This document shows, piece after piece, positions 6,788 to 63,265 of a stretch of DNA of 64,000 nt (position 1 is its first letter; every line of letters starts with the position of its first letter). Position numbers and translations under genes: made by a program. The stretch is taken from the NCBI GenBank assembly GCA_030065825.1, contig JASJCY010000034.1, forward strand, positions 1-64,000. The letters run 5' to 3'. Under the pieces are notes generated by a model. The model had not been told where the DNA came from and did no database searches. It saw only the letters and a list, made by a program, of their open reading frames with translations. Source of the stretch: Nostocaceae cyanobacterium. GTDB lineage: Bacteria > Cyanobacteriota > Cyanobacteriia > Cyanobacteriales > Nostocaceae.

Positions 6788-6801
6788 TTTGGTAAACGGT
6801 A

Positions 6802-7172
6802 ATGGATCTACTCTCGTTTCCAGTTTCTGACTGGAAATGTACCTTCATGGGGTTTTGCTGTCAACCAATGGATCTACTCTCGTTTCCAGTTTCTAACTGG
6901 AAATGTACCTCCACGTGGTTTTGCCGTCAACCAATGGATCTACTCTCGTTTCCAGTTTCTAACTGGAAATGTACCTCCACGTGGTTTTGCCGTCAACCAA
7001 TGGATCTACTCTCGTTTCCAGTTTCTAACTGGAAATGTACCTCCATGCGGCTCTGCCGTCAACAACCCCCAGCAACCCACCACGGCATTACTCTCGTTTC
7101 CAGTTTCTAACTGGAAATGTACATCCACTCGGCTCTGCCGTCAACAACCCCCAGCAACCCACCACGGCATTC
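6802..7172. repeat. Tandem array of a hairpin repeat (66-bp units)
   Basis: Four units of 66 bases start at 6802, 6868, 6934 and 7000, followed by a fifth and a diverged end at 82-base spacing (7090). Each contains CTCTCG, then a perfect 9-bp inverted repeat TTTCCAGTT / AACTGGAAA around the loop TCT (first copy loop TCT with one stem change). The last two units carry an extra CAACCCCCAGCAACCCACC segment. Because 66 is divisible by three, the array reads as an open frame, but it has no protein character beyond the repeat. It directly follows the kinase stop and could act as a 3' end or RNA-stabilising structure. Confidence 0.9.
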
Positions 7173-38095: not shown

Positions 38096-39307
38096 GTGGT
38101 TAGTCTGACCCTGTTAGAACCGCAAAAAAAAACACCACTCCAGCAGTGGAACTTTGAGAACCAATCCTTGATTAAAGTTGGTCGCTCAACGGATAATGAT
38201 GTCGTCATTAGTGATAATTTAGTTTCTCGCCATCACTTAGAATTAAGACAAATTAGTTCTACCGACGATGGTAGTTATTGGCAGGTCATCAATCATGGAA
38301 TCAATGGTACTTTCCTCAATGGTGTGCTGGTAAACAAAGACACTTTGCCAGATAATTCCTTGTTGCAACTAGCCAAGGGAGGTCCAATTCTCCAATTCAA
38401 GCTTCAGCAGCCAAGAATTACCCAAAGCCCTACTCCTGTGCTGCACGGTTGTACACACGAAGGAAACTCCCCTGAAAATCTATTTTGCATCCACTGTGGT
38501 CACCCCCTATCAGTACAACAGACAATTCGCCATTATCAAGTGTTACGCACTCTGGGACAAGGTGGTATGGGTACAACCTATTTGGCTTGGAATGCAGCAG
38601 CATTAAGTGCTGGACATCCGCAACTGCTGGTGTTAAAACAAATGAATGCTGATATGGCGAAAATTGCCAAAGCACGGGAATTATTTGAACGAGAAGCGCA
38701 TATTCTCCAGTCCCTAAACCATCCCGGCATTCCCAAATATTACGACTTTTTCGTCGAAGGTGGAAAAAAATACCTGGCGATGGAATTAATCCATGGAATA
38801 GACTTAGAAAGACTTGTGCTTACTAAAGGTCCAGTTACCCCACAGCAAGCAATAAATTGGATGATTCAAACCTGTGATATCTTGGATTATCTCCATAGCC
38901 AGGAACCACCACTGATTCACCGGGATATTAAACCTGCAAACCTAATGGTGCGCCATGCTGATAATCGCATAGTTGTACTAGATTTTGGAGCAGTCAAGGA
39001 AATTGGCACCGCACCAGGCACCCGCATTGGTGCTGAAGGATACTGCGCTCCTGAACAAGAACGGGGACAACCCTTGACTCAATCAGATTTGTATGCTGTC
39101 GGACCAACCCTGATTTTCCTACTCACTGGCGAAAATCCTTTTAAGTTTTATCGCCTGCGGGGACGAAATTTCCATTTTAATGTGGATAGAATTCCCACCA
39201 TTACCCCCAAATTGAAAGAGGTAATTGAGCAGGTCACACAAACATTACCACGGGAGCGCTATCAAACAGCAAAGGAATTGGCAAAAGCTTTAGCTGATTG
39301 CTTGTAG
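38096..39307 (+). CDS. FHA/zinc-ribbon Ser/Thr protein kinase
   Basis: Starts at GTG 38096; 403 residues. An FHA domain covers about 20-100 (KVGRSTDNDVVISD, LVSRHHLEL, NGTFLNGVLV). A single zinc ribbon follows (CTHEGNSPENLFCIHCG, about 118-134), then a Hanks-type kinase domain at about 145-400: GQGGMGTTYLAW, VLKQMN lysine, HRDIKPANLM catalytic loop, LDFGAVKE, and the APE-like segment CAPEQERGQ. No membrane segment or PASTA repeats. Probably the kinase counterpart of the PP2C protein encoded just upstream, with the FHA domain reading the phosphothreonine product. Confidence 0.93.
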   Translation: MVSLTLLEPQKKTPLQQWNFENQSLIKVGRSTDNDVVISDNLVSRHHLELRQISSTDDGSYWQVINHGINGTFLNGVLVNKDTLPDNSLLQLAKGGPILQFKLQQPRITQSPTPVLHGCTHEGNSPENLFCIHCGHPLSVQQTIRHYQVLRTLGQGGMGTTYLAWNAAALSAGHPQLLVLKQMNADMAKIAKARELFEREAHILQSLNHPGIPKYYDFFVEGGKKYLAMELIHGIDLERLVLTKGPVTPQQAINWMIQTCDILDYLHSQEPPLIHRDIKPANLMVRHADNRIVVLDFGAVKEIGTAPGTRIGAEGYCAPEQERGQPLTQSDLYAVGPTLIFLLTGENPFKFYRLRGRNFHFNVDRIPTITPKLKEVIEQVTQTLPRERYQTAKELAKALADCL

Positions 39308-39797: not shown

Positions 39798-40736
39798 CTA
39801 ACATATCAAGATTTATCTGGCTGTCGTTGTTGTTGGCGCTGATTGCAACAATGGAAAGTTATGGGACTAATTGCACATATCGTCAGCGTGAAGAAAAATA
39901 GTACAATCCAATTTTTTTTTACTACCACAATAGTTTTAAAATTTTCTCCCCACCACAGTAGACTTATTGGCGGGAGACTCCCAAACATTACTATTTGGGT
40001 TCTTGCTACCCTGCATCTAACACTACTCCTACGGAGAATCCTCCGCGAAGACGTACATAGCAACTGCCTCTACGCTGGAAACGTTTTCGGTCTTACGTTG
40101 GCTCCACAGGGTTTGGCTTTCGCCTTTGGAGGCTAACCTACATACATTTAGATTCTAGCATTATTCATGCATGACCTAATTGTTAATTCGTGAATCACCC
40201 ATAGAAAAAGGATGTTTTACGGTTTTTTAGCGATCGCTAGTTTCACTCAAAATGGTGAAACTTTTTATAGATTATCGCAAACCCCCACTTATGGTTAAGC
40301 CTAACACAAATTTTAATAAAAGTTTAATGAAAACCACTATTTGCTTTTGAGCAAGTAATGGACAATAGTTGCAATTGATACTTGACTATCAAAGATGAGG
40401 TTGTTAACCAACTGTCCTTTGGGAATCTCTCTTGAAAGCTGTCTGGGCAGTAATTAAGTATATAATAATACATTATTTTCAAAATTTACAGGGGTTATTT
40501 TAATTAAACTAACAACTTGCACTTCCAAAAAGGATAACCAGGAGGCAGAGTCTCCAAACCCTAGTTACCAGGGTGACGCTGGTAACCAGAACATAGGGAT
40601 CTCTGGCTCTTCTTGAGAATGGTGCAAGTTATCAGATTAAAACTACTGAAAATATCGATGTAAGAGTAACACACTCTATTATTTTGATTTCCGGTGCAAA
40701 TTTTTTCAAAATCGCCAGATTTCAACCCAACCATGA
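39798..40736. other. Gene-free region with one MITE-like element
   Basis: No gene with convincing character is seen on either strand. A MITE-like element lies at 40514-40630. A HIP1 site (GCGATCGC) is at about 40230. The segment 40021-40136 is unusually GC-rich for an intergenic stretch and may be a further repeat copy. Confidence 0.5.
40514..40630. mobile_element. MITE-like element with AACTTGCAC ends and GTTACCAG hairpin core
   Basis: The ends AACTTGCACT (40514-40523) and GGTGCAAGTT (40621-40630) are inverted. The core holds the hairpin GTTACCAGGGTGACGCTGG followed by TAAC (one stem mismatch). 117 bp, same family as 48970-49087. Confidence 0.7.
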
Positions 40737-40752
40737 ATGATGGTTTCTAATG

Positions 40753-41094
40753 TAGGGGCGCATTGCGTGCGCCCTAAATATTTGTATTACCCGCGCCCTA
40801 AATATTTGTATTACCCACGCCCTAAATATTTGTATTACCCGCGCCCTAAATATTTGTATTACCCGCGCCCTAAATATTTGTATTACCCGCGCCCTAAATA
40901 TTTGTATTACCCGCGCCCTAAATATTTGTATTACCCACGCCCTAAATATTTGTATTACCCACGCCCTAAATATTTATATCACTCACGCCCTAAATATTAA
41001 TATCACTCACGCCCTAAATATTAATATCACTCACGCCCTAAATATTTATATCACCCACGCCCTAAATATTTGTATTACCCACGCCCTAAATATT
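40753..41094. repeat. REP palindrome extended by about 13.5 copies of a 24-bp tandem repeat
   Basis: The array opens with the REP GTAGGGGCGCATTGCGTGCG (40753 on) and continues with 24-base units (CGCCCTAAATATTTGTATTA plus CCCG) to about 41094. Late units vary (TTATATCACTCA). It reads as an open frame of Arg-Pro-Lys-Tyr-Leu-Tyr-Tyr-Pro units only because 24 is divisible by three. Its end joins a fragment of RAYT sequence at the same base as in the gene at 41336-42073. Confidence 0.9.
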
Positions 41095-41160
41095 CACAAT
41101 GTCATGTAGATGATTAGGCACCAAAATCCTATTTATCAGCGACCATTTTGTCAATTTTGA
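41095..41160 (-). pseudogene. Decayed RAYT transposase fragment
   Basis: CACAATGTCATGTAGATGAT and the following bases, then TTATCAGCGACCATTTTGTC, match 41815-41844 and about 41896-41920 of the RAYT gene, with the 50 bases between them deleted. The fragment follows the 24-bp array directly. Confidence 0.75.
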
Positions 41161-41335
41161 TTGTTGATAGGGTAATGATAATATTTTTCCTAATTAAAGA
41201 TCGATCATATTAGCGAGGTGTCAAATTATCGGATTTGGGCGCAGGGGATGCGTCGGTACCAGATTGGGCGCACGCAATATTGGGCGCACGCAATGCGCCC
41301 CTACGGGATATTTAAAATCGTCACTGGCATACAGT

Positions 41336-42073
41336 TTAAAAAAACAAATCTAAGCTCAATTCTTCTAAATTCTGATAATTTTGTAGATTATCTGGATCAT
41401 TTTTCCAGCGAGAAGGATTGTTAATAATATATTCTTGAACTGCTACCAGAGATTTTTCATCTCGAATAATCGACTCATAATAGTTTCGTTGCCAAATGGG
41501 AATATCGTGGCTGTGGCGAAGCAAATTAACACGTTTGCTAACAGCAGATTTAAACCCAGCAATAAATGATGATAAAGAATTGGGTTTTTGCCGTAGGGGC
41601 GCATTGCGTGCGCCCTGAATCTTTCCATTACCTACGCCCTGAATCTTTCCATTACCTACGCCCTGAATATTCTCATTACCTACGCTCTGAATATTCTTAT
41701 TACCTACGCCCTGAATATTCTTATTATCTACGCCCTGAATATTCTTATTATCTACGCCCTGAATATTCTGATTACCTACGTCTTGAATATTTCCATTACT
41801 TATGTCCTGAATAATCACAATGCCATGTAGATGATTAGGCATAATAATCCATTCATCTAATTGAAAATTTGGTCGAATTTCACTGGTACGTAGCCATTCA
41901 TCAGCGACAATTTTACCAATGTGATTTAGGTGCATCTGACCATTTTTTATTTCCCCAAACCAGCATTGCCGCTTGTATGTACAGATAGTAACAAAATATA
42001 TCCCTGCTTGGGAATAATCGTAATGTCTGAGGCGGATGGAACGACGATGATGTTTTTTGGGATCAAAATTCAT
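41336..42073 (-). CDS. REP-associated tyrosine transposase (RAYT) carrying an in-frame REP and minisatellite
   Basis: The 245-residue protein is a TnpA-REP/IS200-like Y1 transposase. RRSIRLRHYDYSQAGIYFVT opens it, the HUH-type pair is in MPNHLHGIVII (about residues 78-88), and the catalytic tyrosine is in IWQRNYYESIIRDE (about 195-208). Between these, at about 90-155, lie nine units of an 8-residue repeat (NIQGVGNK type, 24 bp each), ending in GARNAPLRQ, which is the translation of a REP palindrome. The insert keeps the frame, so the enzyme may still fold. Such enzymes move or process REP sequences. The neighbouring REP arrays on both sides fit that role. Confidence 0.85.
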   Translation of the reverse strand: MNFDPKKHHRRSIRLRHYDYSQAGIYFVTICTYKRQCWFGEIKNGQMHLNHIGKIVADEWLRTSEIRPNFQLDEWIIMPNHLHGIVIIQDISNGNIQDVGNQNIQGVDNKNIQGVDNKNIQGVGNKNIQSVGNENIQGVGNGKIQGVGNGKIQGARNAPLRQKPNSLSSFIAGFKSAVSKRVNLLRHSHDIPIWQRNYYESIIRDEKSLVAVQEYIINNPSRWKNDPDNLQNYQNLEELSLDLFF

Positions 42074-42102
42074 GTTGGTAAGTGATCATATTGTAGGGAT
42101 AT

Positions 42103-42282
42103 GGGCGCAGGCAATATTGGGCGCAGGCAATATTGGGCACACGCAATATTGGGCGCAGGCAATATTGGGCGCAGGCAATATTGGGCGCAGGTAATATTGG
42201 GCGCACGCAATGCGCCCCTACGAAATTGGACGCAGGCAATATTGGGCGCAGGTAATATTGGGCGCACGCAATGCGCCCCTAC
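42103..42282. repeat. 16-bp tandem array ending in REP palindromes
   Basis: Units of GGGCGCAGGCAATATT (16 bases) run from 42103 to two full REPs, GGGCGCACGCAATGCGCCCC (about 42200 and 42261). The second REP supplies the stop codon of the O-GlcNAc transferase gene on the other strand. A shorter array of the same kind is at 41237-41304. Confidence 0.9.
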
Positions 42283-44471
42283 TGTACGTATATCTGCCAC
42301 ATTTGCTGGTAAGCTTTCTCCATTTCCCGGGCAAATTTCTTACCATTCCATAAGGGTGATTTTTGTCTTGATTGTCGCAATTTCCAAGAAATTTGTTGTC
42401 TTAATTTTTCGTCTTTACCTAAGCGCACACCCCAGTCTACATATTCTTCATCTGTCCAAGCTATACCTTCTTCTACACCTACATTCATCATCATTGTATA
42501 GCTGTTACGGGCTGCAAATTGCTCTCCGACTCTTGTTACTAATGGTATACCCATCCACAGGGTTTCTAGGGTTGTTGTAGCACCGTTATAAGGATAAGTG
42601 TCTAATACCACGTCAGCAATGGCTAAATTAGCGCGATGTTCTGTGTCTGTTGGTGCGGTGGGTAGAAATCTTAAACGTTCTAAATCAACTCCTTCTGCTT
42701 CAGCAATTGGGGTAATAAAGTCTTTTAAATCTTGATGATTAGAACGATGACTTTTGAGGAGAAAATAACTATTAGGAACTTGTTTAATAATTTGCATTTG
42801 TAACCGGATATTATGGGGGTTACGTTTTAATCCAGTTTGACCACTATAATAAATAATCCCATCATCAGGAATATCTAAAGATTCTCTACTGATTGTTGGT
42901 GTTCCCACCGCAAATCCATCAATACCAATATAATTTTGTGGGAGTCGCCAAATCTTTTCTGTATAGTAATCTTGTGCTGATTCTGGTAATACGTAATTAT
43001 CAGCAATAAAATAATCAACTGTGGGGAAACCACTAGCGTCATAACCCAACCAACTAACTTGAATTGGTGCAGGTTTTAAGGCTAAAATCGCGCAAGATCC
43101 ATAGGAAGTTAAACTATCTAAATCAACTAAAATATCTATTTCATCTTGGTTAATTTTATCTGCCATTGCCACCATTGAGAGACATTCTTGATGAAAACGA
43201 TCACCAAATTCGTTTTTGTAAGCTTGTTGATGTGGATCGTAAATATTTTCTTTTAAAGAATATAAATAAATATCAAATTGTTGGCGATTATGATATTTTA
43301 ATAACCACCACGCTAAGAAACCAACAGAATGAGTACGGAAACATTCTGATAAATAACCTATTCTTAAAGGACGCTCACTCAGAGAAGGACGAAATGAATT
43401 GAAGCGTGTTTGATAATTATTGATATCTTCAGGAAAACTATTCCATAGCAGTTGTTGACATAAATCAGCTAATCCATTGCGAATTAATCTGTTTTCACTC
43501 GGATTATCTTCCATATACAGTAAATAGGAGCCTGTTGGTAAAATTCTAACTAAGCTTTCGCTATCTGTTTTACTTTTTGCAACATCGCATAAATATTTTT
43601 TATAAGTTTCGTAAATAGTAACTGATTTATCCCATTTTTCACAGGAAGTTAAGAAGGCTTCAAGTAAATAGTGATGACCAATAATTTTGTCTACTGGATC
43701 TTGAGTAAGTGATAAATATTTTTCTGCCCAATCAATAGATTCCTTAATATAATCTTTTCCTAATCTTTGTAGAGGAGAAATGATTTTTCTAATACAATCT
43801 AAATTATTAGGTTCTAAACGAAGAGCAAATTTGGCAAAATAAATGGCAACATGATTGTGAGAATAACGATAATAGGCTTCAGATTTTCTAGTCAGCAATT
43901 TAATAATACTTTTAGAAGGTGATAAATAAGGCATGAATGCCTCAATCAATTTATCTAAAAAGATAGGAGGAGTTACTGGATCGAGGTTAATTATTTTTTC
44001 AACAAGTAAAACCAGTAAAGTTTCATCAAAAATAGGGGGAGTTATTAATTCCGATAAATCTTCAATTAATTGATTAATATTTATTTCTATATCCTGAATT
44101 CCCAAATCTAGATTCAGAACAATAATTTTGAAGATATTATTAATATCATGAGGTAGGAATTCTCTGATATGTTGACGAATTACCCAGGCAAGTTTTTTAT
44201 TATCAGCCAATTCTTGCTGTTGGGCAGCATCGAATAATATATCCGTTAATTGTTGCAGCCATTTTTCTAATTCTTGCTCCCCAAATTCTAGAAAGGGAGT
44301 CATCCAAGTAATCTGTGCTTCTTCTTCTCTTCCTTCTAACAATAATGCTAATCCTAAATACCAATAATTAATAATCTTTCTAGGATTTTTACTAATGTTT
44401 TTTTCATGTTGTTGAATGCTCAACAAACTTTGGATTGAAGAAACTTGATTATCTAACTGGGTAGTGTTCAT
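42279..44471 (-). CDS. SPINDLY-type O-linked N-acetylglucosamine transferase
   Basis: This is a 730-residue GT41-family enzyme. The N-terminal 330 residues are helical and TPR-like but degenerate (YWYLGLALLLEGREEEAQIT). The catalytic region begins with RPLRIGYLSECFRTHSVGFL (about 365) and includes DILVDLDSLTSYGS, APIQVSWLGYDASGFPTVDY and the UDP-binding end GATTTLETLWMGIPLVTRVG. It should transfer GlcNAc or another sugar to Ser/Thr of proteins. Two pilin genes lie upstream on the same strand, so pilins are plausible targets. The final codons are CAG TAG GGG: the stop lies within a REP. Confidence 0.92.
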   Translation of the reverse strand: MNTTQLDNQVSSIQSLLSIQQHEKNISKNPRKIINYWYLGLALLLEGREEEAQITWMTPFLEFGEQELEKWLQQLTDILFDAAQQQELADNKKLAWVIRQHIREFLPHDINNIFKIIVLNLDLGIQDIEININQLIEDLSELITPPIFDETLLVLLVEKIINLDPVTPPIFLDKLIEAFMPYLSPSKSIIKLLTRKSEAYYRYSHNHVAIYFAKFALRLEPNNLDCIRKIISPLQRLGKDYIKESIDWAEKYLSLTQDPVDKIIGHHYLLEAFLTSCEKWDKSVTIYETYKKYLCDVAKSKTDSESLVRILPTGSYLLYMEDNPSENRLIRNGLADLCQQLLWNSFPEDINNYQTRFNSFRPSLSERPLRIGYLSECFRTHSVGFLAWWLLKYHNRQQFDIYLYSLKENIYDPHQQAYKNEFGDRFHQECLSMVAMADKINQDEIDILVDLDSLTSYGSCAILALKPAPIQVSWLGYDASGFPTVDYFIADNYVLPESAQDYYTEKIWRLPQNYIGIDGFAVGTPTISRESLDIPDDGIIYYSGQTGLKRNPHNIRLQMQIIKQVPNSYFLLKSHRSNHQDLKDFITPIAEAEGVDLERLRFLPTAPTDTEHRANLAIADVVLDTYPYNGATTTLETLWMGIPLVTRVGEQFAARNSYTMMMNVGVEEGIAWTDEEYVDWGVRLGKDEKLRQQISWKLRQSRQKSPLWNGKKFAREMEKAYQQMWQIYVQ

Positions 44472-51423: not shown

Positions 51424-51716
51424 AAATTGCTAATTCCAAACTCTAAACTCCTTTCCTCACAACTCTAAACTCCTTTCCCCACAACCCCAAACTCCTAACT
51501 CCAAACTCCTAACTCCTAACTCCTAACTCCAAATTCCTAACTCCAAATTCCTAACTCCAAATTCCTAACTGCAAATTCCAAATTCCTAACTCCAAATTCC
51601 AAACTCCTAACTCCAAATTCCAAACTCCTAACTGCAAATTGCAAATTCCAAATTCCTAACTCCAAATTCCAAATTCCTAACTCGTAACTCGTAACTCCTA
51701 ACTCCTAACTCATAAA
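51424..51716. repeat. Low-complexity CTAACTCCAAATTC tandem region
   Basis: About 290 bases of irregular iterations of CTCCTAACTCCAAATTC type (units of 7, 14 and 21 bases) fill the space between the ROK gene and the convergent gene at 51710. The last unit overlaps that gene's stop. Short versions occur at 38005 and 49230. Confidence 0.85.
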
Positions 51717-63066: not shown

Positions 63067-63265
63067 AGGGGCACGGCATCCACAATCTTGCAGTTTATAG
63101 AGTAAGCTTACAAACGCCGTGCCCCGGCATCCACAATCTTGCAGTTTATAGAGTAAGCTTACAAACGCCGTGCCCCGGCATCCACAATCTTGCAGTTTAT
63201 AGAGTAAGCTTACAAACGCCGTGCCCTTACTTACAAACGCCGTGCCCATACTTACAGATGCTGTG
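63067..63265. repeat. 51-bp tandem repeat, three copies plus fragments
   Basis: Units start at 63075, 63126 and 63177 and are identical over most of 51 bases (GGCATCCACAATCTTGCAGT and on, with a HindIII site). Each junction has GCCGTGCCCCGGC, so GGGGCACGGC and GCCGTGCCCC form the inverted ends of adjacent units. Shortened end pieces (CTTACAAACGCCGTGCCC) follow to 63265. Confidence 0.9.

Follow-up and report, generated by a model that had tools for sequence, protein, structure and literature searches.

According to Quentin et al. (2018; PMC6006769), repetitive extragenic palindromes (REPs) carried in frame, together with short repeats, between the HuH and Y motifs are a hallmark of subclass 2.4 of TnpAREP, the REP-associated tyrosine transposases (RAYTs). 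This subclass (RAYT group 4 of Bertels) is described there as cyanobacterial, with the motifs NHxH, WQ and YIxNNP, a variable β3-αC insertion with short repeats, an in-frame REP, and flanking REPs of like type. These traits recur in a RAYT gene at 41336-42073 (minus strand, as are the features below unless stated; 245 aa, no internal stops) of a 64,000-nucleotide stretch of Nostocaceae cyanobacterium DNA (contig JASJCY010000034.1), hereafter the window. That this gene hosts its own REP in frame, as the initial annotation of the window held, is borne out; the phenomenon has been known since that 2018 study, to which the locus adds a new, well-preserved example. The window analysis contributes a frame filter on the repeats, the side on which arrays grow, a match in REP density between insert and flanks, and a decayed neighbour, none of which appears in the available text of PMC6006769; the first three, and a dead copy whose units all contain a stop codon, were likewise not found in the open-licence literature.

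Cyanobacterial REPtrons with GTAG-15/16 REPs (Di Nocera et al., 2013; PMC3733652) share with the window a tyrosine transposase gene surrounded by GC-rich, GTAG-tagged stem-loops. Those REPs also occur within genes; here, however, it is the transposase gene that hosts the REP, to which a half-REP minisatellite is attached. Rickettsia palindromic elements (cited in PMC3733652) are likewise palindromic repeats borne in frame in protein genes, but they lie in many unrelated genes, whereas the window repeat is found, tandemly amplified, within the gene encoding the enzyme presumed to act on it. The evidence presented here makes it probable that REPs accumulate in cis, persist only in a disordered loop and seed slippage arrays that are filtered by reading frame. 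A mobile repeat would in this way alter the gene for its enzyme yet leave it intact: the catalytic halves are nearly REP-free, and the loop is like adjacent non-coding DNA.

The Live Gene and Its Insert

Alignment and predicted fold agree on the identity of the gene, and the complete subclass 2.4 motif set is present in an alignment of 41 sequences. In the HUH motif N-H-L-H (residues 80-83, 41825-41836), H81 and H83 are invariant, although the published consensus is NH[IFV]H and the window protein has L at the x position; W194-Q195 is the conserved WQ motif; and the catalytic Tyr215 (codon 41429-41431) lies in Y-I-I-N-N-P, with Y215 and N219 invariant and P220 nearly so. The match to NCBIfam REP_Tyr_transpos (NF047646; 1.5e-20, 73.6 bits), a model matched by all 41 aligned relatives, falls just under the cut-off of 80 and is split by the insert. 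A sequence search of the PDB returned nothing; a Foldseek search with the AlphaFold model succeeded instead, ranking REP-bound TnpAREP 4ER8 first (E 1.3e-05) and the TnpA proteins of ISDra2 and IS608 behind it.

The REP and a 24-bp array both lie between the HUH and Tyr motifs and are read in frame. A variable linker runs from the HUH strand to helix αC (residues 89-165, 41579-41809). The array (41611-41813; Tandem Repeats Finder [TRF]: 24 bp x 8.5, 90% matches) encodes NIQGVGNK, each unit consisting of a REP arm and a spacer; eight units are in register, the last merging into the REP, and a degenerate ninth abuts the HUH strand, making the earlier count of nine acceptable. The REP, GTAGGGGCGCATTGCGTGCGCCC (41593-41615, plus strand), has its GTAG on the template strand and encodes GARNAPLR; the 7.5-Mb genome holds 315 exact copies of its pattern and none of a reversed-pattern control. 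GTAG REPs of the same family stand on both sides of the gene, one with a short half-REP duplication in the 3' flank (41263-41304) and others with a 16-bp half-REP array in the 5' flank (42102-42283), which is the REPtron layout. Judged from its sequence, the locus belongs to the subclass 2.4 REPtrons: copies of its own REP flank the TnpAREP gene on both sides and also occur within it.

In the AlphaFold model, the predicted local distance difference test (pLDDT) is mostly above 90 in the core (93-98 cited) and below 50 at residues 100-154, so the array is predicted to be disordered. This low-confidence peripheral loop agrees with the published subclass 2.4 model, in which the variable region is distant from DNA and the active site (PMC6006769). 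The array-less orthologue L044 has the same predicted order of strands and helices as the core of the window RAYT.

A Decayed Copy with the Same Insert

A decayed copy (40695-41163) adjoins the live gene and repeats its layout in the same orientation: a 5' scrap, a 24-bp array, a REP and a 3' scrap. The HUH-side scrap (41084-41163) matches the live gene in 62/81 columns, with an alignment score of 81 against a shuffle maximum of 43. It is followed by an array of ~14 units (40770-41094; TRF: 24 bp x 13.5, 96% matches), a REP identical to that of the live gene (40752-40774, plus strand) and a Tyr-side scrap of the helix αC region (~40695-40742), which the initial annotation missed. In a search limited to the REP-adjacent stretch, this last scrap scores 21 against a maximum of 18, and 0/1000 shuffles reach 21; the best alignment of an earlier, wider search (48, shuffle maximum 44) was spurious. 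Since both scraps align, both insert junctions are common to the two copies. The initial annotation correctly saw a decayed neighbor that adjoins the gene and has a REP, an array and the same HUH-side junction. It erred in placing the copy to the right of the gene, whereas by window coordinates the copy lies to the left, which is downstream on the coding strand. Of the extent given there (40753-41160), the array and HUH-side scrap stand, while the left limit must move to ~40695.

The decayed copy reads VPNHLHDIVNI*GVGNT...NI*GARNAPL in a single frame. TTTAG occupies 14/14 units at the position of TTCAG (or TTCAA) in the live gene, placing a TAG in the RAYT frame in every unit; hence either a Gln-to-stop change spread through the array, or a unit already bearing the stop gave rise to a re-expanded array. 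Units of the decayed array resemble one another more closely (0.89) than do those of the live array (0.83); between the two arrays the value is 0.74. The decayed array thus continued to turn over after the death of the gene, and its turnover is independent of a working protein.

The nearest orthologues, L042 and L044 (N half ~82% identical), carry the REP and lack the 24-bp array. Given that the two window copies have order, orientation, frame, period and spacer in common, the array probably arose in the window lineage before the duplication. The comparison supports the earlier proposal of two RAYT copies that would each once have carried the REP and the 24-bp array at this site, one of them since decayed.

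REPs in the Linkers of Relatives

How general is this arrangement? A RAYT match at E up to 1e-25 was found in 116/293 genomes of the order, surveyed as one genome per species, with related rows not independent; matches plus further loci gave 121 RAYT ORFs (open reading frames), of which ~107-111 genes enter the counts. Loci were picked by similarity to the window gene, and linker borders were set by a regular expression; so defined, linkers of relatives span 10-116 aa, and that of the window RAYT, with its REP and array, 82 aa. The frame is open in nearly all relatives. A GTAG stem-loop is present in 52/108 linkers, with 1 match in the N half and 2 in the C half. Twenty of these 52 linkers are template-tagged, 5 coding-tagged and 27 both; this mixed orientation weakens the idea of a one-orientation regulatory hairpin.

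Linker repeats match those around the same gene. Linker 12-mers recur in the gene's own flanks in 60/111 genes (permuted flanks: mean 13, maximum 21); by linker length, they do so in 52/74 long linkers and 0/17 short ones. In genomes with several RAYTs, by our own count, at least five 11-mers are shared with the own flank in 21/40 cases and with the flank of another RAYT in 1/46. Per 100 bp, REP density is 0.458 in the linker, 0.004 in the N half and 0.013 in the C half; downstream of the gene it is 0.406 in the first 100 bp, then 0.221 and 0.146, and upstream 0.28, 0.267 and 0.136, falling on both sides to ~0.01, the level beyond 700 bp. The linker therefore resembles the nearest non-coding DNA, while the catalytic halves are purged of REPs.

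Tandem Arrays: Frame, Speed and Side

Tandem arrays occur in 20/107 linkers, with periods of 12 to 51 bp, and in neither the N nor the C halves. Of these linker periods, 20/20 are divisible by 3, compared with 4/17 in non-coding REP-like arrays. Repeat units and periods are unrelated between different RAYT genes. These arrays can change fast: in L039 and L053, from two species of one genus, the 483-nt catalytic halves are 100% identical and the linkers measure 246 nt (L039, about 13 units) and 111 nt (L053), a copy-number difference observed between the close relatives of this pair. Collapse in the draft assembly of L053 is unlikely to be the sole cause because the L053 junction differs too. 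Besides having fewer array units, L053 lacks the second REP arm with its CTAC foot, the deletion ending at TAC.

Half-REP repeats also lie mainly on one side. Among REPs with a single GTAG (n=305), unpaired extra arms number 52 on the non-GTAG side and 13 on the GTAG side; double-foot REPs (n=140) have 15 and 13, with no side bias. REPs whose core is found in linkers have 37 half-REP copies on the non-GTAG side against 2, and the GGGGCGCA family, scanned in 196 genomes with a 2-12 nt gap, has 37 such sites, spread over 12 genomes, against 3 sites in 3 genomes, a difference that is modest when counted by genome (P about 0.035). The other flank REPs, those not in the linker set, show no significant bias on their own (15 vs 11); the half-REP side bias is therefore claimed only for the linker-core REPs and the GGGGCGCA family. 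It offers a testable clue to how minisatellites are born at REPs.

Weighing the Explanations

What process would yield this pattern? In the account that we consider probable, REPs would be deposited or duplicated near the gene of their enzyme; insertions into the catalytic halves would be removed by selection, and those in the β3-αC loop borne when in frame. The non-GTAG REP arm and its adjoining spacer would then be re-duplicated by slippage or unequal exchange, as at REPs elsewhere, with only lengths divisible by 3 surviving within the loop; once a copy dies, as at 40695-41163, its array would go on expanding and homogenizing. Three parts of this account are inferred: TnpAREP would itself have placed the REPs, slippage would be what amplifies the repeats, and the insert would serve no function; the data suggest that the insert is mostly local repeat litter, borne only where, and at lengths that, the enzyme can bear. 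Several observations weigh against this account. The N and C halves also share 12-mers with their own flanks above expectation (31 vs 15.5 and 26 vs 13.7), which may reflect duplicated scraps or noise. Linker REP presence changes at least 18 times on the tree, 10 of these changes being forced by well-supported branches, and such recurrence could also reflect recurrent selection for an internal REP; equal density, too, is compatible with a function of either linker or flank REPs. A selected cis element, acting through self-limiting binding in its own gene or mRNA or as a traveling substrate that reseeds REPs, would fit a cognate REP that is inside about half of RAYTs, that has been gained or lost at least those 18 times, and whose sequence is retained in L042 and L044 though the remaining linker changed. 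We nevertheless regard it as unlikely: about half of the relatives have no detectable linker REP, both orientations occur, which is odd for an RNA element, and, as the chief argument against any special function, linker density equals that of the adjacent flank. A similarly low likelihood attaches to TnpAREP driving the minisatellites by GTAG-foot-guided nicking and re-joining that repeatedly copies the other REP arm. Enzymes of groups 2 and 3 are reported to cleave REPs, and GTAG helps choose the cleavage site in a group 3 enzyme (PMC8266576); a bias tied to GTAG hints that an enzyme may be involved in the one-sided arrays because a plain hairpin is symmetric. If so, directional half-REP arrays would originate at REPs, and the enzyme would keep acting on the copy inside its gene.

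Other readings fare worse than probable accumulation in cis with frame-filtered slippage. Independent origin of the two window arrays at one site has a precedent in convergent arrays at the linker site of other RAYTs, with other REPs and periods, and is nonetheless quite improbable here: the period is the same, the 24-bp consensus is identical at 19/24 positions, the spacer NI[Q/*]GVGN is shared, the REPs are identical and both junctions are homologous. It is even harder to believe that the frame is open by chance and the window RAYT itself a pseudogene, as the adjoining decayed copy and a Pfam Y1_Tnp score just below cut-off might suggest, given complete catalytic residues, a core that is confidently folded in prediction, and a frame kept open across 8-9 units and in nearly all relatives. 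Equally hard to credit is that array length tunes the enzyme, in the manner of a contingency-type variable number tandem repeat in a protein. Array length does move in frame-keeping steps, faster than the remaining gene, but the array is predicted to be disordered and peripheral (compare PMC6006769), most linkers have no array, and units and periods differ from gene to gene. The suggestion of self-targeting or length-based tuning in the initial annotation thus finds no support, in view of the flank-like linker density, the disordered array, the array-less orthologue with the same predicted core and a dead array that turned over although each of its units holds a stop codon. Because this neighbor's array evolved as it did, caution is due before a function is assigned to such inserts.

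Other RAYTs and Repeats

The source genome contains four full RAYTs, one of them the window gene, and a single 3' part. Arrays occupy the linker site in 3/4 full RAYTs (units NIQGVGNK, GETNPKMG and NVETRHM); the three use three different REP families, each matching the flanking REPs of its own gene. In the fourth, L005, no more than a REP remnant is present. Of the 16 full genomic sites of the third REP family, three lie at the L003 gene, and another three fall within ~4 kb on the L005 contig. At L004:820-1767 (G000:C5), a 315-aa open frame joins a RAYT C-terminal half (the Tyr part) in frame to unrelated sequence upstream and matched no Pfam family at E 0.001; the break falls at the linker. 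Elsewhere in the survey, the L077 linker contains a long in-frame duplication spanning a double-foot REP and part of the subsequent gene sequence, and in L148 (G220:C327) a very long open frame (~590-676 aa) ends in a RAYT, possibly a fusion or read-through.

The neighbors of the window RAYT, at 42279-44471 and 38096-39307, are a family 41 glycosyltransferase and an FHA-domain Ser/Thr kinase, and they show no sign of connection to it. Other repeats in the window comprise 66- and 82-bp tandem repeats with the palindrome TTTCCAGTTTCTAACTGGAAA at 6801-7171 (95-96% matches), three perfect copies of a 51-bp unit at 63074-63226, and ~32 heptamers (AACTCCT) at 51490-51715, akin to the short tandem repeats of filamentous cyanobacteria.
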